Positions 727-33,175 of a stretch of 37,033 nucleotides of DNA are shown here, one piece after another. The position numbers and the translations under genes were made by a program. How positions within the stretch are numbered: the stretch's first letter is position 1; every line of letters begins with the position of its first letter. The DNA is from a virus. The stretch lies in IMG/VR virus record IMGVR_UViG_3300017786_000046, positions 1-37,033 of that record. One strand, written 5' to 3'. Under the pieces are notes generated by a model. It searched no databases and had not been told where the DNA came from. It worked only from the letters and a program-made list of their open reading frames with translations.

Positions 727-742
727 GTTAATATTTATTGCG

Positions 743-763
743 AATATCTACTTCGTAGATATT
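743..763. other. Perfect 9-bp hairpin with 3-nt loop
   Basis: AATATCTAC, loop TTC, GTAGATATT. It lies 17 bases upstream of the start codon of the 191-residue gene, so on the minus-strand transcript it sits in the 5' leader and could affect ribosome access. No U-tract follows on the minus strand, so it is not a convincing terminator for the upstream operon. On the plus strand it is followed by a weak T-rich run. Confidence 0.45.
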
Positions 764-830
764 TGTTTTCGCTTATCGCTCAAACTATACACTTCGTTTG
801 TAGATAGAAGTAATTAATAAGATACAAATG

Positions 831-852
831 CATTATTACGAATGTAATAATG
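831..852. other. Perfect 9-bp hairpin with 4-nt loop
   Basis: CATTATTAC, loop GAAT, GTAATAATG, a perfect inverted repeat within the non-coding block. It is AT-rich and without a strong U-tract on either side. It may be part of the structured leader or an RNA processing site; the function is not determined. Confidence 0.4.
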
Positions 853-881
853 TTTAAGTTTCATGTAGATTGTTTCAGTCA

Positions 882-1009
882 GACGGAACCTGTTACGGTC
901 CCATCTAATCTCAAAATGCGCTTCATGTGAGTCTGCACCAGCCGAGACATTGGAAGTAGGTAATTGTTTATATACAAAGTACAATGGGCTCTGACCTTTC
1001 CCAACCTAC
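882..1009 (-). ncRNA. Candidate structured RNA (hairpins plus three-way junction)
   Basis: Read on the minus strand, 1009-956 folds as a gap-free three-way junction. The outer stem is GUAGGU/ACCUAC (1009-1004 with 961-956). It encloses UGGG/CCCA (1003-1000 with 988-985) and UUGU/ACAA (984-981 with 967-964); only 2 nt (963-962) are unpaired at the junction. Hairpins follow at 948-931 (GUCU/AGAC), 931-910 (CUCA/UGAG with inner AUG/CAU) and 905-882. The last pairs GAUGGGACC with GGUUCCGUC around a GUAACA loop. It includes two G-U pairs that become A-C mismatches on the plus strand, so this stem favours a minus-strand RNA. No known RNA family is recognised. It could also be a processed leader or a degenerate intron. 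Confidence 0.35.
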
Positions 1010-1033
1010 GTCGACATATGTAACATAAAACGT

Positions 1034-1052
1034 ACATTAACTAGGTTAATGT
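1034..1052. other. Perfect 8-bp hairpin with 3-nt loop
   Basis: ACATTAAC, loop TAG, GTTAATGT, a perfect inverted repeat just right of the three-way junction. It may be a domain boundary of the structured RNA. No terminator-like U-tract follows it on the minus strand. Confidence 0.4.
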
Positions 1053-1269
1053 GTAGTTTATATAACATTACCTCTCGCTTCGTTCCTATTGCTAAAGAGT
1101 TTTTATGTACTGTGTTTGTGTTTTTCGACAGCCAACATGCTATCTATATCAACTAGTGAGCCCAATTTGTTTGATGGCTTCCACACTCTGGTGTGTCAAT
1201 CAATATGTTACGTGTGCTTCTATACGAGAGCTTTTTCCACAGCGGTATTTCTAATCTGGCCCGCCAACC

Positions 1270-1719
1270 TTAGGTGTTGGAATGTTTTGCCTGTATGTGA
1301 TGTTCTAGCAATGCCTGTTTGAGTTTGTCTGACCCGCCTACTCTAACATTGATGATACCGTTATAGTAATCATCAGTTTCAAGTACACGCCTGTCAAACT
1401 GTTCTCTTGCCTCTATGTAGGACATTTCGCCCCTACCTTTACATAGGTATAATATTTCTCTTGTAAACTTATTTTCGCCTAGTGCGGCTACATCTGCGTT
1501 TAGTCTATCACTGGAACCCCAGTAAGTCTTCCAATCGCTTTCTTTAGTGCCGCGCCGTTTGTTTTTCTTGCCTTTGAGTGGTGGCTTGGTAGTTTTAAAT
1601 TTTGCTAGTTTCTTGCCTACGTATTTTTGATTTGTAATGGTATTAGTAATAAGATAAACAAAACCTTCGTACTCATCTGGTATTTGGTCAATTGTTTGTC
1701 CTTGGTAAGTCCATTGCAT
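1270..1719 (-). CDS. GIY-YIG nuclease-domain protein (Seg-like)
   Basis: A 149-residue protein with the signature of the GIY-YIG nuclease fold. FVYLITN (20-26) followed by KYVGKK (32-37) correspond to the GIY and YIG motifs. A Lys/Arg-rich insert comes next, then SDWKTYWGSS, a TREIL strand (about 86-90), an acidic helix YIEAREQF carrying the candidate catalytic Glu, and a YNGIINVR segment with the conserved Asn. The same order is found in Seg-type homing-like endonucleases of T4-related phages. The first motif is F-V-Y rather than G-I-Y, so full activity is uncertain. No DNA-binding C-terminal domain is visible at this length. The start is ATG 1719-1717, with only a weak purine stretch upstream and a 22-nt gap from the previous gene. 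It may be a free-standing mobile endonuclease or a domesticated nuclease acting in DNA metabolism. Confidence 0.75.
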   Translation of the reverse strand: MQWTYQGQTIDQIPDEYEGFVYLITNTITNQKYVGKKLAKFKTTKPPLKGKKNKRRGTKESDWKTYWGSSDRLNADVAALGENKFTREILYLCKGRGEMSYIEAREQFDRRVLETDDYYNGIINVRVGGSDKLKQALLEHHIQAKHSNT

Positions 1720-1741: not shown

Positions 1742-1954
1742 TTATTCTTCGCCTGTTTTGGTTTTCCTTGTACTCATATGCAAATGATGAACTTCGTCTG
1801 AACGATCTTTTGCAAAAGTTCGAATATCTCTTAAACATTTACGCACTTCACGATGAGTGCGCACACTGTTTTGTCTTTCAAAGCGTTCGCTTGCTTCAAA
1901 ATATTTAAGATATGCTTGCACCAATTGATCATGAATATCATCTTCATCGTTCAT
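1742..1954 (-). CDS. Small conserved-type phage protein (70 aa)
   Basis: A 70-residue, strongly charged, mostly helical protein, MNDEDDIHDQLVQAYLKYF onward, with an Arg-rich helix (VRTHREVRKCLRDIRTFAKDR) and a basic C-terminus. Small proteins with the pattern AYLKYFEAxxxFE...SVRTxxxVRK.LR.IR..AK.R resemble those beside the recombination genes of marine T4-like phages; that comparison is from memory and the function is not known. It starts two bases after the gp46 stop codon, so it is surely co-translated with gp46/gp47. It has no membrane segment or metal-binding motif. A nucleic-acid or gp46/47 accessory role would fit its position and charge, but that is inference. Confidence 0.75.
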   Translation of the reverse strand: MNDEDDIHDQLVQAYLKYFEASERFERQNSVRTHREVRKCLRDIRTFAKDRSDEVHHLHMSTRKTKTGEE

Positions 1955-17100: not shown

Positions 17101-17726
17101 ACGGCGGCGAAATTGCTAAAGTTAAAAGTATAAGTGATGATATCATTTATCATCCTGTACGTTATAAAATATTGTTTGGGCCAAAGGCTCCAGCAGATTT
17201 ACAAGTTAAATTTAAAATAGTTAGAAATAAAAACTTAGTTATTAATGACAACGAACTAAAAGCAGATATTATTGACGAAATAAACAAATTTTTTGATATT
17301 GAAAATTGGGACTTTGGAGAAACATTTTATTTCCAAGAACTTAGTGCATATATTATGAACAAACTATCTCCAAGATTAGTTAGTTTTTTAATAGTTCCTC
17401 GACAAACTACGCAAACATTTGGTAGTCTTTTTGAAATAAAAAGTGAAGCAGACGAAATATTTACAAGTGCAGCAACAGTAAGTGATATTGAAACCATAGA
17501 TGAAATTACAGCAACACAAATACAAGCATCAGGAAATGTAATTAGTTCTGTTCCAAACCCAGTAACAACAGGAATTGTATCAAGCAATTCAATTAGCAAT
17601 AACAGTAGCTCAAGTAGTAGCTCAAGTAGTAGCTCAAGTAGTAGCTCAAGTAGTAGCTCAAGTAGTAGCTCAGGCAGCGGTAGCTCGAGCAGCGGTAGTA
17701 GTAGCGGCGGAGGATATAGTTACTAA
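14139..17726 (+). CDS. 6: gp6-like baseplate wedge subunit, enlarged, with poly-Ser tail
   Basis: 1195 residues (T4 gp6 is 660). The N-terminal block has the gp6 signature: YDFDNLRRTMINYLRQNYPE, SSEYLALIDMIAFLGQNLSF, then RENFLETAERRESILRLARM and LSYNPKR (about 27-110). gp6 forms the dimer ring that holds the six baseplate wedges around the hub and rearranges when the tail contracts. The middle is longer than in T4, with several extra beta-rich segments (e.g. GDRINLVFSDGVFGNLPSGD near 334-353). The C-terminal core ends near 1115 (FQELSAYIMNKLSPRLVSFL). The last 45 residues are almost pure Ser, then Gly/Ser, ending GGGYSY, encoded by a 12-bp tandem repeat (17604-17675). The stop overlaps the start of the giant gene (TAATG). 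Confidence 0.93.
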   Translation: MSATDRQSRLLVAEDWKRIYQSYRNADFQSYDFDNLRRTMINYLRQNYPEDFNDYIESSEYLALIDMIAFLGQNLSFRIDLNARENFLETAERRESILRLARMLSYNPKRNQAASGLLKINTIKTTENVLDSNRLNLAGITVKWNDQTNSNYFEQFLKILNSALPLQNAIGNPLKTETIAGVVTQKYKFNGTSTASAIYPFTKRIEGVNTRFEVVSSDIVGENIIEEAPLPGNSPSMLFRDDGQGAGSANTGFFMSFVQGRLDAGKFNVSNPTPNQSIAIDAENINNSDVWLFGLNSSGFENQAWTKIDSVEGNNVVYNSLFNKTKDVFAVTTRIGDRINLVFSDGVFGNLPSGDFKVYYRTSSGLRAVITPASLGTIQIEIPYQTKKGTKETLTIGLKLTYTVSNGTATESNEEIKANAPATYYTQDRLITGEDYNIGPLAVSQEIIKTKSTNRISSGISRYFDLKDASGKYSNTSLFVDDGIIYKEEYQEKQSFTFATQTDIEGAIYNTIEEIIKYSNSKNFYLSKYPKIIVSDLNASWNAKTSQTNNYTGIFQDTSSTPYPVGEFTANSLRLIEPGTVIKFVPPLGKHFMADGTLMDDTGADHFGKTMYKWVKVLSVDGDGTSLSIDADSNDYSRASIALNDFIPTGALIEQIIPKYSQALINDIKTQLIDQAFEFRNFALRYDNYDRQWKIVLAEDVNTINDFAIGKAGDTSGENLDASWMMYFKTDGQKYTITYRQMRYVMESENEIRFFFDGADKIYDPAIGEVIRDKIDILNINRKPGELTPFTRDFSWTITDQYKDAEGYLDSRKIQIQFIDLDDDGVFDDPDIFEQIVGESDTSVPITEKVVFQKIYTTSDGVQDFKFFNNLNNEIIIVQNESAIAPYSARLEGQIFYLQDEQIFRKLNKTLNNTEINTDYKAFFGRSNLKFHYIHVADSNYRIDPSSSNIIDTYLLTKTYDRELKQYIAGQLLVEPRPPSNDQLLRNYGGEIAKVKSISDDIIYHPVRYKILFGPKAPADLQVKFKIVRNKNLVINDNELKADIIDEINKFFDIENWDFGETFYFQELSAYIMNKLSPRLVSFLIVPRQTTQTFGSLFEIKSEADEIFTSAATVSDIETIDEITATQIQASGNVISSVPNPVTTGIVSSNSISNNSSSSSSSSSSSSSSSSSSSSSSSGSGSSSSGSSSGGGYSY
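17604..17675 (+). repeat. 12-bp tandem repeat encoding poly-Ser at the gp6 C-terminus
   Basis: Five exact copies of AGTAGCTCAAGT (17604-17663) and a sixth diverged copy (AGTAGCTCAGGC, to 17675). The repeats are in frame, and each unit encodes four Ser using three different codons (AGT, AGC, TCA, AGT). A looser Ser/Gly stretch follows. The exact identity between units points to recent slippage or unequal recombination, so copy number probably varies between relatives. Because the unit is a multiple of three, copy changes keep gp6 in frame. Confidence 0.92.
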
Positions 17727-20700
17727 TGGCATACAATGATGATCAAAATGCGTCTCCACTTCCGGTGCCGGGACAAGATAAAAACATTACAGCAAGTGAT
17801 TTTTTACCTTCTTTCTTTAGAACAGCAGCTAACAAAAAGTTCTTACAGGCAACACTAGATCAGTTAATACAACCGGGTGTTGCAGAAAAAATAAATGGCT
17901 ATTTTGGTAGAACAACTGCTAAAGCATTTAAGCCTACTGACAATTATATGGACGATGTTAGTAGCGAAAGGAAAAATTATCAATTAGAACCAGCAGCTGT
18001 TATTAAAGATAATTACGACAATGTAGAATTTTATAAAGATTATAATGATTATATTGGCCAACTTGGTGTCTTTGGCGGCAACACACAAAACCATAGTCGT
18101 TTGAACACACAAGAAACATATGGATGGAACCCAAATATTGATTGGGATAAATTTGTAAATTTCCGTGAATATTATTGGATGCCAAATGGTCCTATTAGTA
18201 TTCCTGTAAGAGGACAAAGTAGAGAAGTTGTTAGTACATATACTGTTACAACCGAAGATCAAGGCGATAATGTCGCTTATGTATTTAATGACGGATTAAC
18301 AAGAAATCCAACACTTAAATTATATCGAGGACAAACATATCGTTTTGAAATTGATACTCCTGGACACCCTATTGCATTTTCGATCTCAAGAACATTTACT
18401 CCTGGTAGCTCAATATTAACAGCTGGTACAGAAGGTATTAGAAACGAAGGTTTATTTGATGCTGCATTATACGGTAATGAATACGACCAAGGTGATTTTT
18501 TAGTATTACCAAGCAGCGGATCTGTAACGTTTGAAGATGATGATAATGTTTCAACATTATACCCAGATGGGATTCGTAAGTTAGGCGAAGAAGGCGAAGA
18601 AGTAGCAGTTGCTTATATTGAAAAAGGAACTATAGAGTTTACTATTCCTGCAAATTCTCCTGAAAGATTATATTATATTAGTAAAAATGAAATCGATACT
18701 AGTGGATTAATTAAAATTTATGATATCGAAGAAAATAGCTTTTTAAATGTTACTGATGAAATTCTCGGTAAAAAATACTATAAAAGTGCTAACGGTGTTG
18801 AGTTATCAAATGGAATGCAAATTAGATTTCAAGGTGACACTGATAATAGTGTATACAAAGAAAATAATTGGTATGTAGAAGGTGTTGGCGACAAAATTAA
18901 ATTAGTTAAAGATCAAGACTTAATTATTCCGGCTGTTTATAGTGAAAACAAAGTTGTTCCTTTTGACTCTGAAAAATTTGATAGTTTACCTTTTTCAAAT
19001 GCAGGCAATTATGCTTCACAAAAAGATTATATTGTCATTAATAGAGCTAGTCCAGATAGAAATGCATGGAGCAGATATAATTGTTGGCATCATAGAGATG
19101 TAATTTTAAAAAGTTTTAGTTTTAACAAGTTAGCAGAAAATTTAGATGAATCTAAAAGAGCCTCTCGTCCTATTATTGAATTTGAAGCCGGACTAAAATT
19201 AAACAATTTTGGTGCATATGCTAAACAAGATGTAGATTTAATTGATACGTATACTACAGATGCATTTAGTATGATAGAAGGTCAACTTGGATACAATATA
19301 GACGGCGTTGATTTAGCTGACGGAATGAGAATTTTATTTACTGCTGATACAGATGTGCTTGTTAATGGAAAAATATTTCAAGTAAAATTTGTTAGAATTG
19401 GAAACGATAGACAGATTTCGTTAATTGAAACAGCAGATACTACACCGTTAGATCTTGAAACTATTTTAATTACACAAGGTCAAGTAAATGCAGGTAAAAG
19501 CTATCACTATCACAATAATACATGGGTAAAGGCACAAGGAAAAACAAAAACAAACCAGCAGCCACTTTTTGAAGTATGCGATGCTAATGGTAATAGTTTT
19601 TCGTCTACAACATATTATCCGCAAACAAATTTTCAAGGAACTAAACTATTTTCATACTTAGAAGGTGAAGGAACATCTGATACTGAATTAGGATTTCCAT
19701 TATCTTATAGAAATATTGACAATTCCGGCGATATATTGTTTAGTTTTAATTTATTAAGTGATACATTCGAATACGAAGTAGAAAACACAGTGCAAACTAG
19801 TGCAATCAGCTCTGGGTATTTAAAGAAGTATAAAAATTTAACAACTTTTAGTTATGCTAACGGTTTTAGTAATACTCCGCAAAAATCAAAACAATTTGTT
19901 GTTAGAGAATATGCAGCAACTGATACACAAAAAAATAATTTTAATATTGATGTATATGACAATCCATTTAAAATTACTGATTTAAAAGTAGTAGTATTTG
20001 TAAACAATAAAATACAATTATTAACTACAGATTATAATATCAATAAAACAGATCCTGTTGTACAAATACAATTCGTTAACGATTTAAATGTAGGCGATGT
20101 TATTAAGGTAAAAACTGATACTAAAACAATAAAAAATCAAAACGGATATTATGAATTTCCCTACAACTTGGAACGCAATCCATTAAATGATGACATTGTG
20201 CAATTTACTTTAGGCGAAGTAATTGATCATGTAGATAGTATGTTAGAAGATTTACCAAACTTTACTGGTAAGTTCTTAGGTGCAAATAATCTACGTGACC
20301 TTGGAGATTTGGATCAATTCGGCAAACGCTTTGTGAAGCATAGTGGCCCAATTAATCTTCCTTTATATCATATAACAAACAAAGAATATAATATTATCAA
20401 AGCATTGAAATATGCTAAAAATGAATATGCACGTTTTAAAAGAACCTTTATCGATACTGCTACAAATTTAGGCTATGACGGAGCAACAAAAACTCATGTA
20501 GATTTAATATTAGCTGAATTAAACAAAGATAAAATAAAATCACAACCGTTTTATTTCTCTGATATGATACCTTATGGTTCTTTTAACAGGATTGAATATG
20601 CGGTATTAGATCGTAGAACACTAGACTACCCGTTAACTGAAACTTTTACACTAAAAGATTTAACCCCAAAAGGTTTATTAGTTTATCTTAATGGTACTCA

Positions 20701-23700
20701 AATAACATATAACAAAGATTATAACTTTGATAATGCTGGCTACATAACTATTGATGCAGGACAGTTAGAAAATGATATTATTGAAATTTATGAATATGAG
20801 TCATCTGATGGGTCATTTATTTCACCAACACCTACTAAGTTAGGTTTATATCCTAAGTATAATCCAATGTTAACAATTGATGATACTGTACAGCCCACAG
20901 TACCTGTTGATGATTCTACCGGACCATTTAAAGTTTATGGACAAATTGAAACTAGTACTAAGTCTATTTTAGGCATTGATCAAGGACTTGTAGGTTGGAC
21001 ATATCCGTTATATACGTCTAGGGCGGCTGCAAAAGAAGCATCTACAGATTCTACTGCTAAGACTATAACATTTGAAGGATTGAATAAATTATTTTATATT
21101 CCTAATACAAATGATACAGCAGTAATAGCTGGCAATGACGATGTTGAAGTAACTGAATACTATTACGGAGTTGCATTTATTATAGGGCACGATGGTAGTC
21201 GTATAAAGGCATATAAAGATTTTAGAGATAATTTATTAATCGAATTAGAAAAACGCATTTTCAACAATATTAAAGTTGACTATTCTAATTCAAGACTAGA
21301 TATAGATCAGTTTATTGGCGGCGAATTCAAAACGACTGATTTTACAAAACAAGAAATAGATAAAACATTACTACCAGATTTTCAACAATGGATACAATCA
21401 AATCTAAATAATCAAAATTATACTAATAACACGTTTTATAATAGGAATAACGATTGGACTTTTAATTATGCAGATACACTATCTCCAAACGGAAATATAA
21501 ATCCCGGATTTTGGAGAGGGGTTTATCAACATGCATATGATACAGATCGTCCGCATAGTCATCCTTGGGAAATACAGGGATTTAGATTAAAGCCAACTTG
21601 GTGGAACACAGTGTATGGACCTTCTCCGTATACTAGTGATAATTTAGTACTTTGGAAAAATATTGAAGAAGGAAAAATTGCAGATCCTTCTAATGTTACA
21701 TTTGATCTAAATTATGCTAGGCCAGGCATAACTACACATTTGCCAGTTGATTCACAAGGAAAATTAGTATCTCCATTAGCATCAGGATACGCAAATGATT
21801 TTATATTAAATCGTGCAACAAGAAATTTTAAATTTGGTGATTTTGCACCTATCGAAAATGCATGGCGCAATAGTTCAGAATATCCCTTTGCTGTTATGAT
21901 AGCAATGTTAGTAAACCAGCCAGCCAAAACCATGGGTCTTGGGTTTGATGTATCGAGAATAAAAACAAATTTAAGCGGGCAATGGACATATACAGAAACT
22001 AACAAACAGATAGTTTTAAAAGATCTTGTATTACCTAATACTACTAGTTCCACTACACGAGTTATGACATCTGGATTTGTAAACTACATTTACAATTTAG
22101 TTGCTAGTGATGTGTTAACAGTTTACAATGACTATAAAACTAATTTGAAAAATTTAACAAATCAAATTGGTATCAAAATTTCAGGATTTACGAGCAAAGA
22201 AAACTTTAATTTAATTTTAGACAGCAGATCTCCAACACAATCTCTTTCCCGTGACGGCATATTTGTGCCACAGGAAAATTACAAAGTATTTTTGAATACT
22301 AGTAGTCCAAAGACATTGTTAACATACAGTGGTATATTAGTAGAAAAAGTTACAAACGGGTATGTACTCAGTGGATATAGTTTGCAACAACCTTATTTTG
22401 AATATTACAAAACAATTAATGGCGCTGCCTTTATAGAAGTTACTGTAGGCGGAAAAAGCGAAAAGGCTTCGTTGTATGCTAACAACACCCAATATTACAC
22501 TGGCGAGATAATATCTGCTACTAATAGTTTCTTTAAGGTTACAAATGATTTTAAGTCTACTGCCGGTGAAGAAGGCCAAAAACTATTTGATAATAACACA
22601 GTAAAACTTCCAAAATTACCAACTACCGGCGGCAGAACAGCAAAATTTAAAAAGAATTTTGCAACAGAAGTTTCAATATTACAATACGGAGCAAGATTTA
22701 ATACAGTACAAGAAACTGTTGACTTTATATTAGGATACGCACAAAGACAAACAGATTTAGGATTTGAATTTAATAAATTTGACAAAGAAGCTAATGTTGT
22801 TGAAGATTGGAGGCAGTCAGCTAAAGAGTTTATGTATTGGACTACACAGGGTTGGGCTCCTGGCGCATTACTAGCAATAAGTCCATCAGCTAATCAGTTG
22901 CGAGCTAAACTAGATTATGGCATAATTGATAGTCTAACAGATGAGTTTTATGGGTATAGTTTACTCAAAGCATCTGGAGACTTTTTGGACTCGTCCTTTA
23001 GTAGTTTAATAAGAGACAAAAACTCATTTGGTATTTCAATACAAGGTACTGATGACGGGTTATATCATGCGTCATTGCCAGTAATACAAAAAGAACATGT
23101 TGTATTACTTGATAATAAAACAATATTCAACGATTTAATATATAATCCAAGTACTGGTTATAGACAAGAAAGAATCCGTGTTAACGGATATAGATCAGAT
23201 AACTGGAACGGCGGATTAAACATTCCTGGATTTGTTTATGATGATGCAACTTATGGCGACTGGGTACAATGGAAAGATTATAGAATTGGAGATCTTGTAA
23301 AATATAAACAGTACTACTACGTAGCACTACGAAATGTTATTGGTACTGAAACATTTAATTCTAACTTTTGGTATAAATTAAATGAAAAACCAGAGTCAGA
23401 ATTAGTACCAAACTTTGATTATAAAATCAACCAATTTGCAGATTTTTATGATTTAGATACTGATAATTTTGATAGCGAACAACAACGAATGGCTCAGCAT
23501 TTAATTGGTTTTCAAAAACGACAATATCTTGCTAATATTATTAATGACGATGTAAGTCAGTATAAATTTTATAGAGGTGCAATAGCAGACAAAGGCACAA
23601 TGAACGTGTTTACTAAACTGTTTAGTGCATTGGGTAATACAACAGATACATTAGAATTGTACGAAGAATGGGCAATACAGTCTGGTAGATTTGGCGCTAT

Positions 23701-26700
23701 TGAAGATATTCAACAAATTGAATTCCAACTTGATGATAAAAAAATGCAAGAATCTCCACAGGCATTTGAGCTTGTTAACACATTGCCTAGCAGTAACCTA
23801 AACAATATATATAGGATATTGCCAAACGAAGTGTATAGTAAACCTGTAGATTATGCAAGCGAACCATTTCCAATTAAAGTATTAAGTGAAGAATTTGTTA
23901 AAACAGCTGGTTATGTAAGCGAAGAAGATGTTGATTTTGTTGCAGGAGATGTTACTACACTATACAATGTAAATATAAATCAAATTGGATTAGGTCAAAC
24001 AATATGGGTTACAAACACAGTTAATAACTCCTGGGGAGTTGCACAACTAAGATCAAAGAACGTACATATAACAGAGTTAAGTAAAGTAATTACGATTACT
24101 AATAAGACACCAGCAGCTAATTTTACATTTTTAGAAGTTACTACTGATAAATGGATAGACGATATTTACGAGGTAGATAATTATATTGGATTTAAGGCTG
24201 CCGGTGAGCATGGGTTACTGGGATTATACAGAATTAGAGAAAGAAGCTTTAACAAAATTGTAGTCGAAACCCCACTTAACAACGATATTACAGCATTTTC
24301 TGGAGAAGGCCCTTATCTTATAGTTAATCTTAGTAACAGCAGGGTTGCTTCAGTTCCAGAGATTAGCGAAAAAATTGGACAAGATATAGTTAAAAATCAA
24401 AAAGTGTGGGTTGACAAGTACCAAGATGATTGGGCAGTACTACAAAATAATCCAGTTTATAGTATGCAAGAAACTTTAGAAAATCCTGCAGACTATGATA
24501 GTACTGATCAAGGATTTACTGATAGTATTGCTGTAACTAAAAATAATAATAATTTGTTTATCTCAGCACCAGGTGCCGGCAACGGAGAAATATCTGTTTA
24601 TAAAAGATCAAGAGATGTAGCAAATTTAAATTTTGCACAAAAAATAACTATTGACGAAACGCAAATGTTCACACCAACTAATAGCGACTTTGGTAAAAGT
24701 ATTGATGTTTCACCAGACGGAGAATACTTGGCAGTTGGTATTCCAAAAGCCAGTAATGTTAAAACTAAGTTAGCATATAAAACTAATGGAGATGGAGAAT
24801 TAACATTTGATTATCAAACAGATGCTACATACGTTAAAGGAGATATAGTACGTTACCGAGAAAGTTTATGGAAAGCTAATAGAGAAATTTTACCACAAAT
24901 TGGCGCCCAACCGTTTTCAACATTTGATTCTTACACTAATTTAGCAAATGCTGCTGATGCTGACAGTACTACACTAAATTTACTAGTTGCAGGTAATCCC
25001 GGATTACCAAATTATCCTAATACAGATCATATGTTAATACGTGCTCCAAAAGACATGTACTTAGGTACTGCAATTGGTGATAATATTAATCTATTTTGGA
25101 ATCAACGTAGCTTCACATACCCTACAACAGATAATTATATCCCGTTTGACGGAGAAATACCAGAACTTAGTATAGGATTTATTACAGCAGAACATGCTAT
25201 TTTAGAAAAAATTGATCATATTATGTATGTTGATACATTTGTGACATTGCCCGCAGTTGGACAAAGAATAACTACAGATACAGGTAGTGCTGAAGTAGAT
25301 TACGTTGCATTTAAATCCGACAGTGCAGTAATATACCTTAAAAATTCAAATGGTATTTTTGATATTGGTGGCGAATTATACATTAATGATACAGACTTTG
25401 TAGGATTTTATACTGAAGAAGATACATATTCTATATCATCATCAGTTGCAGGCTATTGGAAAATTGCAACTCCGCCATATAACAATAATTCTCGGTATTA
25501 CGATGTAGGTAGAGGATTAGTGTATGCTGATATTAAGAAACAAAATTCTGTACGTGACACTAATTTATATTATAATGTACAAGCTACAGTGGGCGATATT
25601 GGTGTATATGTAACAAATAAAAATAGAGTAAGTTTTCTAAGTCACTTATCATATAGAGGAGATCCGTCACCGGCAGATGCACAAGACGGTGTTGAAGCAG
25701 ATCAGCCTAGTAACAAATGGGTAGTAAGAGTTGGTAAACAATATTCCGATAGTCTTAGTATTGGAGCAACACCTAATTTTGATCTATATCAACTTGACAA
25801 TAGGGTAATTGACGTTGAAGGCGCAGGACTATCTTACGATATTTTAAATAAACAGCATACTATTATTGATATATGGGACGGTTATATTGACATGGCCCTT
25901 AGTGAATTTGATTTTAATGGGTTTGCCTTCCAACCGCAAGTTGGTGATGTAATTGAAGATGTACAAGTGCCTGCAGACGGCCAAGGCGGATTGGCTTTAA
26001 CAACTATTAGTACAAGTACTGCACAAGTTGTTTTTGTACAACGTAACTTTAACAACGTCCGAGTATATGTAAAAGTGTTAACTGGAGATTTTGTTGAACA
26101 GTCTAACATTGGCAAATATGATATTAGAAGAAAAGCAAATACACTTCTTCGAGGACAAACAGATTCAGATCGCGTTATTGCTACAATAGATGATACAAAC
26201 AATAATATTGTATTACAAACTAGTTTAGTTGGAAAATTACTAGTATTTGAACATACTAGTAATTTTGATATAGTTGAAAATCCTGAAATTATTGATGAAG
26301 AATATGCATTTTTTACTGAAATATTTGAATCAGGAATTGAACGAGCAGCAAATTCTCCTTATAGCTTAAACAAGGATTATACACAAGTTTATAATATTCC
26401 TGCGCTGGATCAAGGAACTACTAACAGTTTAACAAACGAAGGCGCTGTTGCAATTTATAGAAGATTAAATAACGGAGGATATAGATTTCAAAATCTATTC
26501 GTATCTGAACATAGAAAAAACAATAAACAATTTGGTAACAAAGTCAGACTAGTCCAATCAGGCAATTATTATACGTTGTTAGTAGGCAGTAAAAGTCAAA
26601 GCGGCAATCCCGGGTCAATTGAAATATTTAGACACGGTGTGTCACCGCAAGAGTCATTTGCCGGAGTTTATAGAAGGCAAGTATATAGTAAAGGTGATAT

Positions 26701-29700
26701 TATCCTTTATAAAGATGACTTTTATATTGCAATAAAAGATGTACCAGAAACAATGAATGATGTATTAAATTCTATATACTGGAACAAAATTAGCTGGCGC
26801 TACGGAAAAGATACTGAGTTCATGGGAGAATTTGATAATACAGATTCTTACAGAACAGGTAATGTTGTTTCCTATAATAGTAATTTGTGGAAAGCAGTAA
26901 CTAATATTGATATTGGAGCAAATAATCCTTCAGATACAAATAACTCTTGGATATTAGTAAGTACTAAAATTGATTACTTGGGCTATCTGCCAAATATTAC
27001 AGCAAACAATTTTTATGGCGAAGAAACATTTAATCCACAAGAAGAATTATTAGAATTTAGTGAAAACTTTGACGTAAGTGACGATTCAAATGTATTAGTA
27101 GTAACAGCAAAAGTAAATGGACAAGATAGTACTACAAATGCTAGAATAGTTGTTTATAGAGAAGTTGATAACAAGTATGTAGTTTCACAAGTTATTTCAG
27201 CACCAAATACAAACATTGAAAATAACGGAATTGTGTTTAATGATGAAGCTTGGGCAAAAGCTGTGTCGTTAAGTCCAGACGGAACCCAACTAGCAATTGG
27301 CTCTCCGTTAAATGATAATGCTAAAACTAACCAAGGTGAAGTTTATATTTGGACACAAAACAATGCTGGCGTATTTGAGATGACACAAACACTTACTCCG
27401 CCTAGTAACGAGGAAAGTGAAAAGTTTGGATTTAGTATAGATTTTGGACAAGACGATTTACTTATTTCAAGTCTAAATGGCGATCAAAAAATCCCAACTT
27501 CGTTTGATATAACAAATAATGTTCCAACTACATTTGATAAAAACTTTACTAGTTTTAGAAATACAAAACTGGATAAAGGTATAGTTTATGTTTACGAAAA
27601 TATTAACAACACATTAGTATATGGTGAACAATTTGTATATCCACTAACTCAAACTATGTTCGGAGAAAATGTATATTCAGTAGGCAATCATGCATATATT
27701 GGCGTTCCTCAGCAATATGTTGACGGACGTGATCATCGAGGAATATTAATTGATTATAGAAAACCTCCTAATACAAAATCTTGGAATGTAATAAGTCAAG
27801 GTAGTACGCCGACAAATGTTAAACAATTTGCAGGAGCATTTATATATAATAAGCGTTCAAATAGAATTATTTCTTATATAGACTATATTGATCCTATACA
27901 AGGTAAAATTGCTGGACCAGCAGATCAAGAAATTTCATATAAATTACCTACAGATCCTGCATTATATAATACAGGATTAACAAGCGATCCACTTGTTGAT
28001 GCAGATTTAGGTTGGACAAACAAACACATTGGAAAAGTTTGGTGGGATTTAAGTAAAGCTAAATTTGTTAATCCTTATCAAGGTACAACTACTTTTCAAA
28101 AAAATAACTGGAATAAACTAACGCCCGGTGCAACAATACTTATTTGTGAATGGGTTGAATCAGTATATTTGCCAGACACTTGGGACCAGTTATCCGGTAC
28201 TCCAGAAGGATACACTAATGGTGTAAGTGGTACTTCGTTATATGGTAACACTAGGTATTCAACAAAAATTGTATATGACGAAACAAGTAAAACATTTGGC
28301 AGATTATATTATTTCTGGGTTACTAACAAAAGAACTGTTCCAAATGGCAGAAATATTAATACTATTGGTATTGCCGAGTTAATTGCTAATCCTAGAACCA
28401 ATGGATATAAATTTATAAGTTTCTTAGGAAAAGATAAATTTGTTCTTAATAATTGTGATGATTTAATCAACGGTACTGATAGTGTACTTCAAATTAAATA
28501 TCATACTACTGATAAACCTACCCAAAACTATCATAATCAATATAAGTTGTTTGCTGACGGCTCACCTGATAGTGTTCCAGAGCAAGATTTAGAACGTAAG
28601 TGGTTTGATAGTTTGATTGGTTTTGATATAGCAGAAAGAGCAATACCAGATCCTAATATTCCATTAAGTATGCGATACGGTATACAATCAAGACCGCGTC
28701 AGAGTATGTTTGTTAATAGAATAGAAGCATTAAAACAAACTATTGAACGAATTAATTTAGTGTTAAAACAAAACTTAATTACTGACGAATATAATCTAAC
28801 AAACTTGTTAAAGAAAGATGACATACCTACATCTGTTTCACAGCTATGGGATCTAAGTGTTGATAGCATAGATGAATTAGAGTATATTAGTACTAACAAA
28901 ATACTTAATGCACAATTAACACCGATTATTGTTAACGGTAGACTTGCAAGAGTTAGAATAGATAATCCGGGTCGTGGATATAAGTCTGCACCAAAAGTTG
29001 TAATTAACGGCACAGGCAAAGATGCAATTATTGACGTTACAATTAATAATTTAGGGCAAGTTACTGAAGCACAAGTAATTGATGATGGATCTGAATATAA
29101 TGATCAAACAACAATTAATGTTAGACCATTTACTGTACTAGTAACTTCAGATATTGAAATTAATGGCAAATGGGCTCTGTATTCTTTTAATAACACAACT
29201 AATACATGGTATAGAAAAGCCCTACAAAGTTATGATACAACAGCTTACTGGGAGTATATTGACTGGTATGCAGACGGATTTAATCAATTTACTCCAATTA
29301 CAACTAGCATTGAAGGATCGTATCAACTATTTCCATTAGAAGTAAACATTAATGATGTTGTTAAAATTAATAATGTTGGATCAGGCGGTTGGTTATTATT
29401 AAGAAAAGTTGCCGATGAAGATACAGAAGACTATACGGTTAATTATGAAACTATAGGTAGACAAAACGGTACAATACAGTTTAAAGAAAACTTGTATAAC
29501 TATAATCTAAACTCTGTTGGATTTGACAATAGACGATTTGATAATACTTTTTATGATATTAATCCCTCTACAGAAATAAGAAATATTTTAGAAGCTATTA
29601 GAGATAATATTTTTATAGGTAGCTTAAAAGTTGAATATAACCAGTTGTTTATGTCAACAATAAGATATGTATTGGCTGAACAATCTAATGCAGATTGGTT

Positions 29701-32700
29701 GTTTAAAACTAGTTTTGTAAAAGCCAAACATATTAAAGGAACACTTAATCAAAATGACATAACGTTTAACAACGATAACTTACAAAGTTATCAAGATTTT
29801 GTAGAAGAATTTAAACCATATAAAACTAAACTAAGAGAATTTGTAAGTAATTACGATGTACTTGATAATACTAGTTCGTTAACAACAGATTTTGATTTAA
29901 GTCCGGCATATAGCACTGAAACAAAGCGTATTGAATCAAGTGTTGCAAGAATACAAGATGGTGTTATCGTTGAACAAAATCTTGATACAGATATTAATCC
30001 ACGTCAAAATTGGAAGAATAATATTGGACAACAAATTGTTGAAATTAAAATTGGTGACGGAGGCAGTGGCTGGACATTTGAACCAATTGTTAAAATACAA
30101 GGCGGCGGCGGAACAGGTGCTGAAGCAAAAGCATATCTTGGCTACGGAAAAATAACACATATTAAAGTTACTGAACCCGGTAGCGGATATACAAGTGCGC
30201 CTACTGTTATAATTGAAGGCTCACAGACTGATAATAGTACTCCTGCAAAAGTAACAGCAGTATTAGGTGGTGGACTAGTAAGGTCAACTAAAGTAGCAAT
30301 GAAGTTTGATAGAAATGCTGGATCTTATACTTTTGACACACTTGACGAAACAGAAACGTTTACAGGTACAGGAGCTAGAGTAAGGTATGATCTAGGCTGG
30401 CCTATGGACCTTGATATAAAGAAGGTTGAAGTTTACATAGACAATGTACTACAGTTACGTAGTAAATATACCTTTACTAATATTGAAGATACAACTAAAA
30501 CATATGACAGAGAAAGAGGTAGAATTACATTTACTAAACCGCCTGCATTGAATGCGGCAATTCAAGTCAAATATAAAAAGCCTATAAGTTTATTAAGTGC
30601 TGAAGATAGAATTAAATTTGCATATCAGCCAGGTGCAAATATGTTTGGTAAAGAGTTGTCGCAGTTATTAGACGGAATTGACTATGGCGGAGTAGAAATA
30701 CGTAGTTTTGATTTTTCCGGACCATCAGGTTGGGATACACAAGGCTGGTATACTGATAATTGGGATGTATTTGAAAATACTTTTGAAGATGAAGTATTTA
30801 CAGCAGACGGATCAACAATTGCAGTACAATTAAGTGCTCCTCTTGAAGCTAACGTTGTGTACAACTTGTACAAAAACGGTGTGAGAATTGACGCACCTGA
30901 TTTTGTAGCAGGGACAGATGAAATTCCTGGAACATCGGCTACTAATGTAAACGCTATTACATCTAGTATTACCGGTGACGGCATAACAGATACAATTTTG
31001 GTACAAGATTTGGGTATAAGTCTATTAGACGGAGATGTATTTGTTGTAAGAAAATCGTCAAGTGATGGATCAATAGGTCTAGACCCAACAAGTTATGATA
31101 CACAAATTAACGGCGGAGATTTAGTATATTCAACAGCCACTGGTTTAAATGCCGAAGATATTGTTGTAGACGGCGACGGATTTGTTACACCTACAACATC
31201 CAAAGGCCCAGAAGAATTAGTTCCAGGACAAGTAATAGATACTTTAGATATTAAAGTTTATACTAGAGATAGTGACGGACAAGGTCAAATCTTTAGCCAA
31301 AGCTATATTATGGATAGCACATTAACTTATAGTCTTGGTGTACTGCCAAGCACAAGTGATGCAGTATTTGTAAAATTAAACAACCAATTATTGCCAAACA
31401 CAGATTATACAGTTAATTGGACAGATAAAACTATTACGTTTGCTAGTGCAACAGTAGGTGCTGAACTTAATATAATAGCAGTAGCACAAGGAATACAAAG
31501 CATATTAGATTTTGGAACGTTAATTACTGACGGAACGTCAGAAGAATACACACTTCCTGTCAAATATGTAGAAGGAATGCAAGTTTCTGTTACAGTTGAC
31601 GGTACTCCTAAAACTGTAGATGTTTTAGAAACAGAAACAGTAGGATTATTTGCAGCTATTAGATTTGATGAAGTACAAGATGCAAATAAAACTATCCACT
31701 TTACAGCATTTGGTAATTCAGATACTGTAAATTATAGTCAAATTACTAAAGATACATTTACCGGTGACGGCACGTTAGCTGATTTTGAATTACTACAATC
31801 TCCGTTTTACTCAATTCCAACAGAACACAACTTAATTGTAAAAGTAAATAATACAATTTTAAAAGCAGGATACAATGTTGAATTTGTAATTCCGCAAACA
31901 GGACAAAAAGAATTTGCTGTTGAAACATTCCAACATCCTTCGGGAAGCCTCGAAGTGAACGATATTAAAGTTTTCTTAAATGGCGTTGAAAAAACAACTC
32001 CAATTGACTGGAGATTTGAAATTTCAAATAGTAGTATTATATTAGCAGATGATGTAGGTACTCCTGGCGATGTTGTTGATGTATTTGTAATCACCGACGG
32101 TGATTATAGAGTATCAGGTAAAACAGTTACATTTGACACACCTCCTGCATTAAATGATACTATTGAAATATACCAATTTTCAAATCATAACTTGTTAGAC
32201 ATTGATAGAATTAACTATGATGTTGTATCTAGAAAACTAATGTCTCCAGATGAATTAGATTATGTAAATTACATTAGATTAACAACTGGTGAAATTAGTT
32301 TACGTTCGCCTGCTCCTGATGCACAGTATGTTTGGGTATCTGTAAACAACGAATTGTTAACACCTAGTGTTGATTACTATGTTACTAATGACGGAATGAA
32401 AGTAAGATTAATTAGACAACCATCAACAAATGATAAAATTGATGTAATACATTTTACTGCTCCTGTAAGTAGAACTAAGTTTGCATTTAGACAATTTAAA
32501 GATATGTTAAATAGAACACACTTTAAACGTTTAGATAAATCAGCAACTACATTAGCAAATAATTTAAATTACCATGATTTAAGGATTGAAGTAGAAGATG
32601 CAAGTAATTTATCTGAGCCAAATAAAGGACAAAATTTGCCAGGTATTATCTTTATTGACGGCGAACGTATTGAATATTTTGTAAAAGAAAATAATACATT

Positions 32701-33175
32701 GCGTCAACTACGAAGAGGAACACTCGGTACAGGAGTTAAAAATGTACACACTGCTGGATCAAAAGTGTTTGATCAAAATATAGCTAAAACAGTTCCTTAT
32801 GCAGATGCTACAATGACACATACGTTTAGGGAAGAAGTTGACGGTGTGCAAACAACGTTTGCTATACCATTTACAGTTGATTCAGTTAACGAAGTTGAAG
32901 TATTTGTTGGCGGAATTAGACAAAGAAAAAATACATTGGATGTGTTTGATCCAACAATAGCACTTGATAGTCCGGAAGGCAATGTTACACATGCTGCTGA
33001 ATTTACTGTTAATGCTAATGCTCTAGTACTTTCTACAGCACCAGCAGACGGAATATCAGTAACAGTAACTAAAAAACAAGGAAGAAGCTGGACAGAAAAC
33101 GGTATATCCCTAGGAGATACAGAAAATTCAATTGCTAGATTCTTACGTGCCGGAACAACAGAGCTACCTGAATAA
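17726..33175 (+). CDS. Giant virion/baseplate protein (5149 aa), gp7-like position
   Basis: One uninterrupted 15.4-kb frame. By position after gp6 it replaces T4 gp7 (1032 residues), but homology is not provable by eye. Modules in order: N-terminal structural block (1-190, FVNFREYYWMPNGP); a cupredoxin-like motif LYRGQTYRFEIDTPGHPIAF (about 198-217); dYxV/gDxI beta modules near 750-800 and 980-1025; a block with DRPHSHPWEIQGF and KPTWWNTVYGP (about 1273-1295); CBM-like Y-x-x-G-D-x-V-x-Y modules near 1851, 2368, 2986 and 3041; SPDGxxLAxGxP propeller-like repeats near 2321 and 3180; GxGYxSAPxVxIxG modules near 3748 and 4108-4180; then further beta modules from 4230 to the end (GIIFIDGERIEYF, LRRGTLGTG). 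It probably forms baseplate arms or adhesive projections. Start at TAATG with GGAGG 12 bases upstream. Confidence 0.85.
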   Translation: MAYNDDQNASPLPVPGQDKNITASDFLPSFFRTAANKKFLQATLDQLIQPGVAEKINGYFGRTTAKAFKPTDNYMDDVSSERKNYQLEPAAVIKDNYDNVEFYKDYNDYIGQLGVFGGNTQNHSRLNTQETYGWNPNIDWDKFVNFREYYWMPNGPISIPVRGQSREVVSTYTVTTEDQGDNVAYVFNDGLTRNPTLKLYRGQTYRFEIDTPGHPIAFSISRTFTPGSSILTAGTEGIRNEGLFDAALYGNEYDQGDFLVLPSSGSVTFEDDDNVSTLYPDGIRKLGEEGEEVAVAYIEKGTIEFTIPANSPERLYYISKNEIDTSGLIKIYDIEENSFLNVTDEILGKKYYKSANGVELSNGMQIRFQGDTDNSVYKENNWYVEGVGDKIKLVKDQDLIIPAVYSENKVVPFDSEKFDSLPFSNAGNYASQKDYIVINRASPDRNAWSRYNCWHHRDVILKSFSFNKLAENLDESKRASRPIIEFEAGLKLNNFGAYAKQDVDLIDTYTTDAFSMIEGQLGYNIDGVDLADGMRILFTADTDVLVNGKIFQVKFVRIGNDRQISLIETADTTPLDLETILITQGQVNAGKSYHYHNNTWVKAQGKTKTNQQPLFEVCDANGNSFSSTTYYPQTNFQGTKLFSYLEGEGTSDTELGFPLSYRNIDNSGDILFSFNLLSDTFEYEVENTVQTSAISSGYLKKYKNLTTFSYANGFSNTPQKSKQFVVREYAATDTQKNNFNIDVYDNPFKITDLKVVVFVNNKIQLLTTDYNINKTDPVVQIQFVNDLNVGDVIKVKTDTKTIKNQNGYYEFPYNLERNPLNDDIVQFTLGEVIDHVDSMLEDLPNFTGKFLGANNLRDLGDLDQFGKRFVKHSGPINLPLYHITNKEYNIIKALKYAKNEYARFKRTFIDTATNLGYDGATKTHVDLILAELNKDKIKSQPFYFSDMIPYGSFNRIEYAVLDRRTLDYPLTETFTLKDLTPKGLLVYLNGTQITYNKDYNFDNAGYITIDAGQLENDIIEIYEYESSDGSFISPTPTKLGLYPKYNPMLTIDDTVQPTVPVDDSTGPFKVYGQIETSTKSILGIDQGLVGWTYPLYTSRAAAKEASTDSTAKTITFEGLNKLFYIPNTNDTAVIAGNDDVEVTEYYYGVAFIIGHDGSRIKAYKDFRDNLLIELEKRIFNNIKVDYSNSRLDIDQFIGGEFKTTDFTKQEIDKTLLPDFQQWIQSNLNNQNYTNNTFYNRNNDWTFNYADTLSPNGNINPGFWRGVYQHAYDTDRPHSHPWEIQGFRLKPTWWNTVYGPSPYTSDNLVLWKNIEEGKIADPSNVTFDLNYARPGITTHLPVDSQGKLVSPLASGYANDFILNRATRNFKFGDFAPIENAWRNSSEYPFAVMIAMLVNQPAKTMGLGFDVSRIKTNLSGQWTYTETNKQIVLKDLVLPNTTSSTTRVMTSGFVNYIYNLVASDVLTVYNDYKTNLKNLTNQIGIKISGFTSKENFNLILDSRSPTQSLSRDGIFVPQENYKVFLNTSSPKTLLTYSGILVEKVTNGYVLSGYSLQQPYFEYYKTINGAAFIEVTVGGKSEKASLYANNTQYYTGEIISATNSFFKVTNDFKSTAGEEGQKLFDNNTVKLPKLPTTGGRTAKFKKNFATEVSILQYGARFNTVQETVDFILGYAQRQTDLGFEFNKFDKEANVVEDWRQSAKEFMYWTTQGWAPGALLAISPSANQLRAKLDYGIIDSLTDEFYGYSLLKASGDFLDSSFSSLIRDKNSFGISIQGTDDGLYHASLPVIQKEHVVLLDNKTIFNDLIYNPSTGYRQERIRVNGYRSDNWNGGLNIPGFVYDDATYGDWVQWKDYRIGDLVKYKQYYYVALRNVIGTETFNSNFWYKLNEKPESELVPNFDYKINQFADFYDLDTDNFDSEQQRMAQHLIGFQKRQYLANIINDDVSQYKFYRGAIADKGTMNVFTKLFSALGNTTDTLELYEEWAIQSGRFGAIEDIQQIEFQLDDKKMQESPQAFELVNTLPSSNLNNIYRILPNEVYSKPVDYASEPFPIKVLSEEFVKTAGYVSEEDVDFVAGDVTTLYNVNINQIGLGQTIWVTNTVNNSWGVAQLRSKNVHITELSKVITITNKTPAANFTFLEVTTDKWIDDIYEVDNYIGFKAAGEHGLLGLYRIRERSFNKIVVETPLNNDITAFSGEGPYLIVNLSNSRVASVPEISEKIGQDIVKNQKVWVDKYQDDWAVLQNNPVYSMQETLENPADYDSTDQGFTDSIAVTKNNNNLFISAPGAGNGEISVYKRSRDVANLNFAQKITIDETQMFTPTNSDFGKSIDVSPDGEYLAVGIPKASNVKTKLAYKTNGDGELTFDYQTDATYVKGDIVRYRESLWKANREILPQIGAQPFSTFDSYTNLANAADADSTTLNLLVAGNPGLPNYPNTDHMLIRAPKDMYLGTAIGDNINLFWNQRSFTYPTTDNYIPFDGEIPELSIGFITAEHAILEKIDHIMYVDTFVTLPAVGQRITTDTGSAEVDYVAFKSDSAVIYLKNSNGIFDIGGELYINDTDFVGFYTEEDTYSISSSVAGYWKIATPPYNNNSRYYDVGRGLVYADIKKQNSVRDTNLYYNVQATVGDIGVYVTNKNRVSFLSHLSYRGDPSPADAQDGVEADQPSNKWVVRVGKQYSDSLSIGATPNFDLYQLDNRVIDVEGAGLSYDILNKQHTIIDIWDGYIDMALSEFDFNGFAFQPQVGDVIEDVQVPADGQGGLALTTISTSTAQVVFVQRNFNNVRVYVKVLTGDFVEQSNIGKYDIRRKANTLLRGQTDSDRVIATIDDTNNNIVLQTSLVGKLLVFEHTSNFDIVENPEIIDEEYAFFTEIFESGIERAANSPYSLNKDYTQVYNIPALDQGTTNSLTNEGAVAIYRRLNNGGYRFQNLFVSEHRKNNKQFGNKVRLVQSGNYYTLLVGSKSQSGNPGSIEIFRHGVSPQESFAGVYRRQVYSKGDIILYKDDFYIAIKDVPETMNDVLNSIYWNKISWRYGKDTEFMGEFDNTDSYRTGNVVSYNSNLWKAVTNIDIGANNPSDTNNSWILVSTKIDYLGYLPNITANNFYGEETFNPQEELLEFSENFDVSDDSNVLVVTAKVNGQDSTTNARIVVYREVDNKYVVSQVISAPNTNIENNGIVFNDEAWAKAVSLSPDGTQLAIGSPLNDNAKTNQGEVYIWTQNNAGVFEMTQTLTPPSNEESEKFGFSIDFGQDDLLISSLNGDQKIPTSFDITNNVPTTFDKNFTSFRNTKLDKGIVYVYENINNTLVYGEQFVYPLTQTMFGENVYSVGNHAYIGVPQQYVDGRDHRGILIDYRKPPNTKSWNVISQGSTPTNVKQFAGAFIYNKRSNRIISYIDYIDPIQGKIAGPADQEISYKLPTDPALYNTGLTSDPLVDADLGWTNKHIGKVWWDLSKAKFVNPYQGTTTFQKNNWNKLTPGATILICEWVESVYLPDTWDQLSGTPEGYTNGVSGTSLYGNTRYSTKIVYDETSKTFGRLYYFWVTNKRTVPNGRNINTIGIAELIANPRTNGYKFISFLGKDKFVLNNCDDLINGTDSVLQIKYHTTDKPTQNYHNQYKLFADGSPDSVPEQDLERKWFDSLIGFDIAERAIPDPNIPLSMRYGIQSRPRQSMFVNRIEALKQTIERINLVLKQNLITDEYNLTNLLKKDDIPTSVSQLWDLSVDSIDELEYISTNKILNAQLTPIIVNGRLARVRIDNPGRGYKSAPKVVINGTGKDAIIDVTINNLGQVTEAQVIDDGSEYNDQTTINVRPFTVLVTSDIEINGKWALYSFNNTTNTWYRKALQSYDTTAYWEYIDWYADGFNQFTPITTSIEGSYQLFPLEVNINDVVKINNVGSGGWLLLRKVADEDTEDYTVNYETIGRQNGTIQFKENLYNYNLNSVGFDNRRFDNTFYDINPSTEIRNILEAIRDNIFIGSLKVEYNQLFMSTIRYVLAEQSNADWLFKTSFVKAKHIKGTLNQNDITFNNDNLQSYQDFVEEFKPYKTKLREFVSNYDVLDNTSSLTTDFDLSPAYSTETKRIESSVARIQDGVIVEQNLDTDINPRQNWKNNIGQQIVEIKIGDGGSGWTFEPIVKIQGGGGTGAEAKAYLGYGKITHIKVTEPGSGYTSAPTVIIEGSQTDNSTPAKVTAVLGGGLVRSTKVAMKFDRNAGSYTFDTLDETETFTGTGARVRYDLGWPMDLDIKKVEVYIDNVLQLRSKYTFTNIEDTTKTYDRERGRITFTKPPALNAAIQVKYKKPISLLSAEDRIKFAYQPGANMFGKELSQLLDGIDYGGVEIRSFDFSGPSGWDTQGWYTDNWDVFENTFEDEVFTADGSTIAVQLSAPLEANVVYNLYKNGVRIDAPDFVAGTDEIPGTSATNVNAITSSITGDGITDTILVQDLGISLLDGDVFVVRKSSSDGSIGLDPTSYDTQINGGDLVYSTATGLNAEDIVVDGDGFVTPTTSKGPEELVPGQVIDTLDIKVYTRDSDGQGQIFSQSYIMDSTLTYSLGVLPSTSDAVFVKLNNQLLPNTDYTVNWTDKTITFASATVGAELNIIAVAQGIQSILDFGTLITDGTSEEYTLPVKYVEGMQVSVTVDGTPKTVDVLETETVGLFAAIRFDEVQDANKTIHFTAFGNSDTVNYSQITKDTFTGDGTLADFELLQSPFYSIPTEHNLIVKVNNTILKAGYNVEFVIPQTGQKEFAVETFQHPSGSLEVNDIKVFLNGVEKTTPIDWRFEISNSSIILADDVGTPGDVVDVFVITDGDYRVSGKTVTFDTPPALNDTIEIYQFSNHNLLDIDRINYDVVSRKLMSPDELDYVNYIRLTTGEISLRSPAPDAQYVWVSVNNELLTPSVDYYVTNDGMKVRLIRQPSTNDKIDVIHFTAPVSRTKFAFRQFKDMLNRTHFKRLDKSATTLANNLNYHDLRIEVEDASNLSEPNKGQNLPGIIFIDGERIEYFVKENNTLRQLRRGTLGTGVKNVHTAGSKVFDQNIAKTVPYADATMTHTFREEVDGVQTTFAIPFTVDSVNEVEVFVGGIRQRKNTLDVFDPTIALDSPEGNVTHAAEFTVNANALVLSTAPADGISVTVTKKQGRSWTENGISLGDTENSIARFLRAGTTELPE

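Follow-up and report, generated by a model that had tools for sequence, protein, structure and literature searches.

A predicted pseudoknotted RNA of about 500 nt downstream of a segE-like GIY-YIG endonuclease gene in uncultured marine phages

The window analysed here is a 37,033-nt stretch of viral DNA (positions 1 to 37,033 of the IMG/VR record IMGVR_UViG_3300017786_000046), near whose start two complete minus-strand open reading frames, at 151-726 and 1270-1719, bound a gap at exactly 727-1269 (543 nt). The initial annotation had singled out this gap within an otherwise tightly packed minus-strand block, and it is real; the other gaps downstream of gp47 measure 2, 2 and 22 nt. The neighbouring gene had been read as one for a GIY-YIG protein, and the product of 1270-1719 indeed matches PF19835 (E 8.9e-35), with conserved GIY-YIG and catalytic Glu regions; the motif residues are invariant across 23 aligned homologues. 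Upstream of this segE-like gene and on the same strand lie a 70-aa gene, gp46, gp47 and the gene for the late sigma factor, and the order gp55-gp47-gp46-p70-segE-RNA is fixed across loci. The elements that flank the gap are the following:

1742-1954, minus strand: p70, a conserved 70-aa gene upstream of segE with no assigned function, adjacent in 156 of the 176 main-clade loci.
1270-1719, minus strand: segE-like GIY-YIG endonuclease gene (149 aa), found directly 5' of the RNA in all 116 unique loci with enough upstream sequence.
731-738, minus strand: the motif AATAAATA, which resembles a T4-type late promoter and precedes gene 151-726; also found 3' of the RNA in relatives.

The gene at 151-726, which follows the RNA, encodes 191 aa without a Pfam or PHROG match, and a pattern search gave relatives in three viral contigs only. 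Elsewhere in the window, positions 17726-33175 hold one 5149-aa open reading frame among plus-strand structural genes. ARAGORN found no tRNA in the window.

The gap almost certainly holds a conserved structured RNA. About 75 of the 80 viral-contig loci with the closest segE retain this region downstream of that gene, usually at 80-97% identity; the similarity in these loci stops near the terminal hairpin and the next gene varies, the downstream side of the RNA being freely reshuffled between phages. More than 130 distinct viral loci carry the RNA, its core motif has matches in at least 119 stretches, and the motif is present as a single copy in 21 of the 27 contigs searched (up to 236 kb), the other six being without it. 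The RNA was previously undescribed and is carried by a large group of uncultured marine phages: isolate phages searched at the DNA level gave no match to the window RNA or to three divergent RNAs, and the open-access literature yielded no report of this RNA or of an RNA-associated GIY-YIG nuclease. What looked like an 'empty' gap is thus a widespread large phage RNA.

Open reading frames inside the gap are not conserved, each staying open in frame in only 4-14 of 86 homologues, and 52-58 of these 86 carry length changes within them that are not multiples of three. Since the internal frames are not kept, the gap is noncoding; a conserved coding frame, which the initial annotation had raised as the counter-reading, is not found among the 86 homologues. 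Among the three identities it had offered, that of a phage non-coding RNA is borne out by the covarying hairpins, the strand signal of the G-U pairs (both described below) and the lost frames. A regulatory leader is unlikely, since the downstream gene differs between phages, and a decayed mobile element finds no support at a syntenic locus whose SegE is free of internal stops in 265 of 267 cases.

On the minus strand, the same as that of segE, the RNA is predicted to extend over about 500 nt and to fold into a pseudoknotted structure with the following elements:

744-1269, minus strand: structured RNA core, from GGTTGGCGGGCC (1269) to the terminal hairpin (744); conserved, covarying, noncoding.
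1241-1265, minus strand: hairpin P1 (1265-1261/1245-1241), nearly invariant, with variation limited to an A/G-U pair.
1212-1240, minus strand: hairpin P2 (1240-1238/1214-1212; inner 1231-1230/1218-1217), with U-A to A-U, G-C to C-G and C-G to U-A changes.
1146-1206, minus strand: stem P3 (1206-1200/1152-1146) around hairpin P3a (1195-1191/1186-1182), with compensatory changes in 3 and 4 pairs.
1127-1144, minus strand: hairpin P4 (1144-1140/1131-1127), helix 6 of the covariation set.
978-1111, minus strand: long-range pseudoknot helix PK (1111-1106/983-978), crossing P7 and P8; 100% paired, double changes in 5 of 6 pairs.
1072-1099, minus strand: hairpin P6 (1099-1096/1075-1072; 1092-1091/1079-1078), in the covariation set; swap test 0/5000.
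1019-1069, minus strand: exchangeable peripheral hairpin between P6 and the core (columns 203-273 of alignment A1; a gap in blastn).
941-1015, minus strand: core helices P7 (1015-1011/946-941), P8 (1009-1005/961-957) and P8a (1002-1000/990-988), in the covariation set.
882-905, minus strand: GC-rich hairpin P9, flanked by both copies of a repeated unit, in the covariation set; swap test 9/5000.
832-851, minus strand: hairpin P10, double changes in 5 of 5 pairs; swap test 0/5000.
744-783, minus strand: conserved GTTTGAGCG..AGCGAAAAC element (P11) and terminal hairpin, whose pairs show double changes in 8 of 8; swap test 0/5000.

The two perfect 9-bp stems reported earlier, AATATCTAC-TTC-GTAGATATT and CATTATTAC-GAAT-GTAATAATG, were both found; one is P10 and the other the terminal hairpin. 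Some 30 nt of upstream conservation overlap the 3' end of segE, and the true 5' end of the RNA may therefore lie within or upstream of that gene. The peripheral hairpin (1019-1069) is exchanged for unrelated forms, either tetraloop stems or one of several long AT-rich stems, among RNAs that are otherwise similar.

When folded on its own, the minus strand performs modestly better than its shuffles (z -2.25; 2 of 100 shuffles as good) and the plus strand no better (z -0.5). The comparative evidence comes from alignment A1, which was built from 37 sequences with MAFFT and without reference to structure. RNAalifold recovers 76 pairs from it, 30 of them with double changes; in the curated structure, whose helices were taken from RNAalifold and mutual information, 98.8% of cells are paired and 36 of the 76 pairs carry double changes. 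The covariation score of the curated structure is 0.299, compared with 0.129 for shuffles, none of which reached it (0/500), and the signal collapses when the partners are slid by 1-3 columns. Part of this structure came from the same sequences, which is why helix strands were also compared in an alignment-free swap test; its permutations ignore relatedness, and its counts are hence not exact probabilities. The strands of PK bind their own partner at -10.7 kcal/mol and foreign partners at -7.2 kcal/mol (0/5000), and P8, which has two pairs with double changes, gives 12/5000. P1, P7 and P8a are nearly invariant, and covariation speaks neither for nor against these three helices. The initial annotation had proposed conservation and covariation of its hairpins as checks; the hairpins are kept in relatives, and the named helices covary far beyond shuffles. 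A-U/G-U and G-C/G-U variants are seen on the minus strand, and such G-U intermediates identify it as the RNA strand.

The earlier statement that no known RNA family could be recognized holds for the window, which has no real match in Rfam at gathering or relaxed thresholds (a snoR07 match with E 4.7 is due to chance), but it does not hold for close syntenic relatives, which carry RF01718. This family (Polynucleobacter-1) was tabled as a motif of Burkholderiales and of fresh-water/estuary samples by Weinberg et al. 2010 (PMC2864571). In the relatives L245, L247, L265/L270 and L372-L380, the RNA that follows segE starts with RF01718 (up to 107.8 bits), which accounts for its first ~141 nt; segE precedes the motif in all nine motif-bearing contigs, and gp46 lies within the fetched DNA in eight of them. 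RF01718 hence occupies the same genomic place as the window RNA and is followed by sequence apparently related to the 3' domain of the latter, although the window RNA itself stays below the gathering cut-off of the RF01718 model (37 bits), with nothing up to E 5. Signs of this relationship were obtained by nhmmer with the 3' domain (L247, E 3e-8; L265, E 9e-11) and by a covariance model of this domain, R2, which matches L260 (1e-11), L282 (5e-6), L374 (0.003), L375 (0.004) and L265 (0.04). Every R2 match lies 3' of segE and the isolate controls gave none, the matches to RF01718 RNAs being modest (E 0.003-0.04). The corresponding model of the 5' domain, R1, reaches only L260 (0.011) and so gives no direct demonstration that the 5' domain is homologous to RF01718. 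On these weak matches through its 3' domain, the window RNA is predicted to form a new branch of a larger RNA superfamily, with RF01718 among its members. The latter, an orphan family whose model covers only about the 5' quarter of the RNA, thereby gains a context as the opening portion of a ~500-nt RNA encoded after a phage GIY-YIG nuclease gene. Two further divergent groups of RNAs at the same place fold with compensatory changes of their own; their homology to the window family rests on position and on the repeated unit, and sequence models do not join them.

This unit, 7-8 nt long and differing between phages, is present twice, on either side of P9; its two copies change together across phages:

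921-928, minus strand: unit copy 1, ACATGAAG.
859-866, minus strand: unit copy 2, ACATGAAA.

In 83 of 86 aligned sequences, the two copies agree at all six aligned columns (shuffle maximum 59), and 20 of the 23 rows that depart from the majority are changed identically in both. A varying position of one copy mostly has its counterpart in the other as top mutual-information partner. Distant RNAs carry other units, again twice and about 50-70 nt apart (AGATAAT, GTATGAA, TCGTGAT, GGTGAAG, TGTCAAG, GGGTAAT, TGGTAAA). The claim of co-change rests on the aligned-column test, because block shuffles in the divergent loci are unusable for significance: these loci were picked for their units, and chance alone would give 6.6 of 22.

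Most simply, the two copies would both contact one and the same partner in trans. A complement of the unit was sought in cis and none was consistent or co-varying, the flanks hold no palindromic or repeated unit copies, and the unit is not avoided in the phage's own genome; a depletion of its complement near the locus (22 versus 41 expected) was gone in long contigs with a Markov control. The SegE proteins of L226 and L227 differ at one residue, yet the unit has changed, a contrast that points away from SegE side chains as the partner; a direct reading of the unit by SegE was rejected on this ground. Avoidance of CATG was likewise rejected as a full account of how the unit varies: only three loci show strong CATG loss, and loci with CATG units resemble those with non-CATG units in overall CATG ratio.

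Further observations on CATG may be recorded here. The fetched sequences of L008 and L185 are without any CATG (0 versus about 9-12 expected upstream), and both unit copies in these two loci read ACGTGAA in place of ACATGAA. In the contig of L140 (G009, 103,879 bases; L362-L365, L140), the first 80 kb are without CATG (204 expected), the two unit copies are the first two CATG sites of L140, and CATG is frequent only past the RNA. This contig may be an assembly chimera or a natural recombinant with its junction within the RNA; alternatively, the RNA may be exempt from the CATG loss.

We suggest that the RNA would be transcribed together with the gp47-gp46-segE unit and would end near its terminal hairpin, ahead of a late-type promoter. 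An ATAAATA late-promoter-like motif lies 3' of the RNA in 63 of 100 loci, compared with 3 of 1463 control windows, and the copy at 738-731 is a putative late promoter. The RNA may then act in trans, with its two matching variable units as contacts for a nucleic-acid partner, and its most likely, if tentative, protein partner would be the neighbouring SegE-type GIY-YIG nuclease, with which it would form a ribonucleoprotein. We put the probability of this reading as a whole at about 0.35. HEARO RNAs work with IsrB/IscB-type proteins, and this precedent, together with the strict linkage to segE, favours the SegE partnership. Like the HEARO/OMEGA RNAs of IsrB/IscB, the window RNA is a large structured RNA consistently found beside an endonuclease gene. 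It differs from them in that the nuclease is of the GIY-YIG (PF19835) and not of the HNH/RuvC type, its neighbour not being an IscB-, IsrB- or TnpB-type protein, and in that the RNA lies 3' of the open reading frame, has no known flanking guide and has no Rfam match.

The gene is syntenic in nearly all RNA-bearing loci, recent mobility is not seen, and gp46 is in range in 174 of the 176 main-clade loci with room. As regards the protein, the gene directly 5' of the RNA clearly belongs with the PF19835 SegE endonucleases, from which it departs in being fixed, syntenic and followed by an RNA. The isolates Melnitz, ACP17, phiN3, RHph_I1_18 and S-SRM01 have no such RNA after segE, and RNA-less SegE is located elsewhere in other phages. 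RNA-bearing and RNA-less SegE proteins share 61-75% identity, and the former have no extra domain; there is, consequently, no protein mark of an RNA partnership, and this similarity speaks against SegE as the partner. A PDB sequence search with SegE gave no match. The closest isolate gp46 is that of the jumbo phage PA5oct (51%); a segE-RNA module is not annotated after gp46 in PA5oct, Sinorhizobium phage Phosso or Agrobacterium phage Atu_ph07, and the 3'-domain model has no match at these loci. The cis partner not found for the unit, and its lack of avoidance in the own genome, also count against our preferred explanation, as do the modest E values of the R2 matches to RF01718 RNAs. A stronger form of it, in which the RNA guides the GIY-YIG nuclease and the two units pair with a nucleic-acid target for a dimeric cutter, appears improbable; if true, it would add to the RNA-guided nucleases a fold for which the literature searched gave no such case, and RF01718 would gain a function. 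Should SegE prove to be the partner even in the broader sense, it would add a new nuclease class to the RNA-associated nucleases, and the co-changing paired units open a direct experiment, namely finding what they touch.

It is nearly as probable that the RNA is an independent trans-acting phage molecule (a regulator, a sponge, a packaging RNA or an RNA-only assembly such as GOLLD and ROOL) and that segE is a mere co-inherited neighbour. The gp55-gp47-gp46-segE block is wholly syntenic, so that the linkage of segE and RNA could be simple co-inheritance and need not be functional, and SegE occurs without the RNA in other phages. In six relatives (L071, L073, L077, L081, L083, L084), segE ends earlier and a sigma70-type promoter of the RNA's own, TTGACA-N17-TATACT, sits between the segE stop and the RNA. 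GOLLD and ROOL are large pseudoknotted phage or prophage RNAs whose function is not known, and they show that large phage RNAs without a known protein partner exist (PMC12286853); the window RNA is likewise large, pseudoknotted and phage-encoded, but it has no Rfam match to either, lies in a window without a tRNA and is tied to segE. Against independence stands the finding that the RNA occurs without segE in none of the 116 loci, despite its freely reshuffling downstream side.

An unlikely alternative is a cis-acting 3' element of the gp46-segE transcript that protects or terminates the message and insulates the late promoter that follows. It would accord with an RNA always found at the 3' end of the gp46-segE unit, with a strong final hairpin and then a late-promoter-like motif; however, one hairpin suffices for a 3' end, a pseudoknotted fold of ~500 nt with invariant unpaired stretches would be excessive, and the matching variable units are left unexplained. 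We give very little credence to a self-processing RNA, either a ribozyme or what is left of a group I-type intron with its endonuclease. Phage introns do combine a GIY-YIG gene with an adjacent large, pseudoknotted RNA, and a hairpin flanked by two identical sites would suit it as well, but neither the window nor its divergent relatives match an Rfam intron or ribozyme (group I introns included), both neighbours of the gap are complete open reading frames with no split gene, the position is fixed, and there is no cis guide complementary to the unit. A replication origin or a recombination site with direct repeats, acting as DNA and not as functional RNA, would suit the adjoining recombination genes gp46/gp47, the varying downstream genes and the one contig whose CATG content changes at the RNA as if junctions fall there, but is hardly credible given one-strand helix covariation with G-U intermediates, an RNA signature.

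Two observations concern the databases. SegE-type GIY-YIG proteins are labelled 'NAD synthetase' in phrog_447 and in many GenBank records (e.g., those of H5, H15 and H60), which looks like a propagated error. The phage locus also turns up in two contigs assigned to a Candidatus Neomarinimicrobiota MAG, PBPT01000016.1 (L366, 335 kb) and PBPT01000082.1 (L367, 153 kb); L367 has gp55, gp47, gp46, segE and the RNA, and both contigs look like mis-binned phage.
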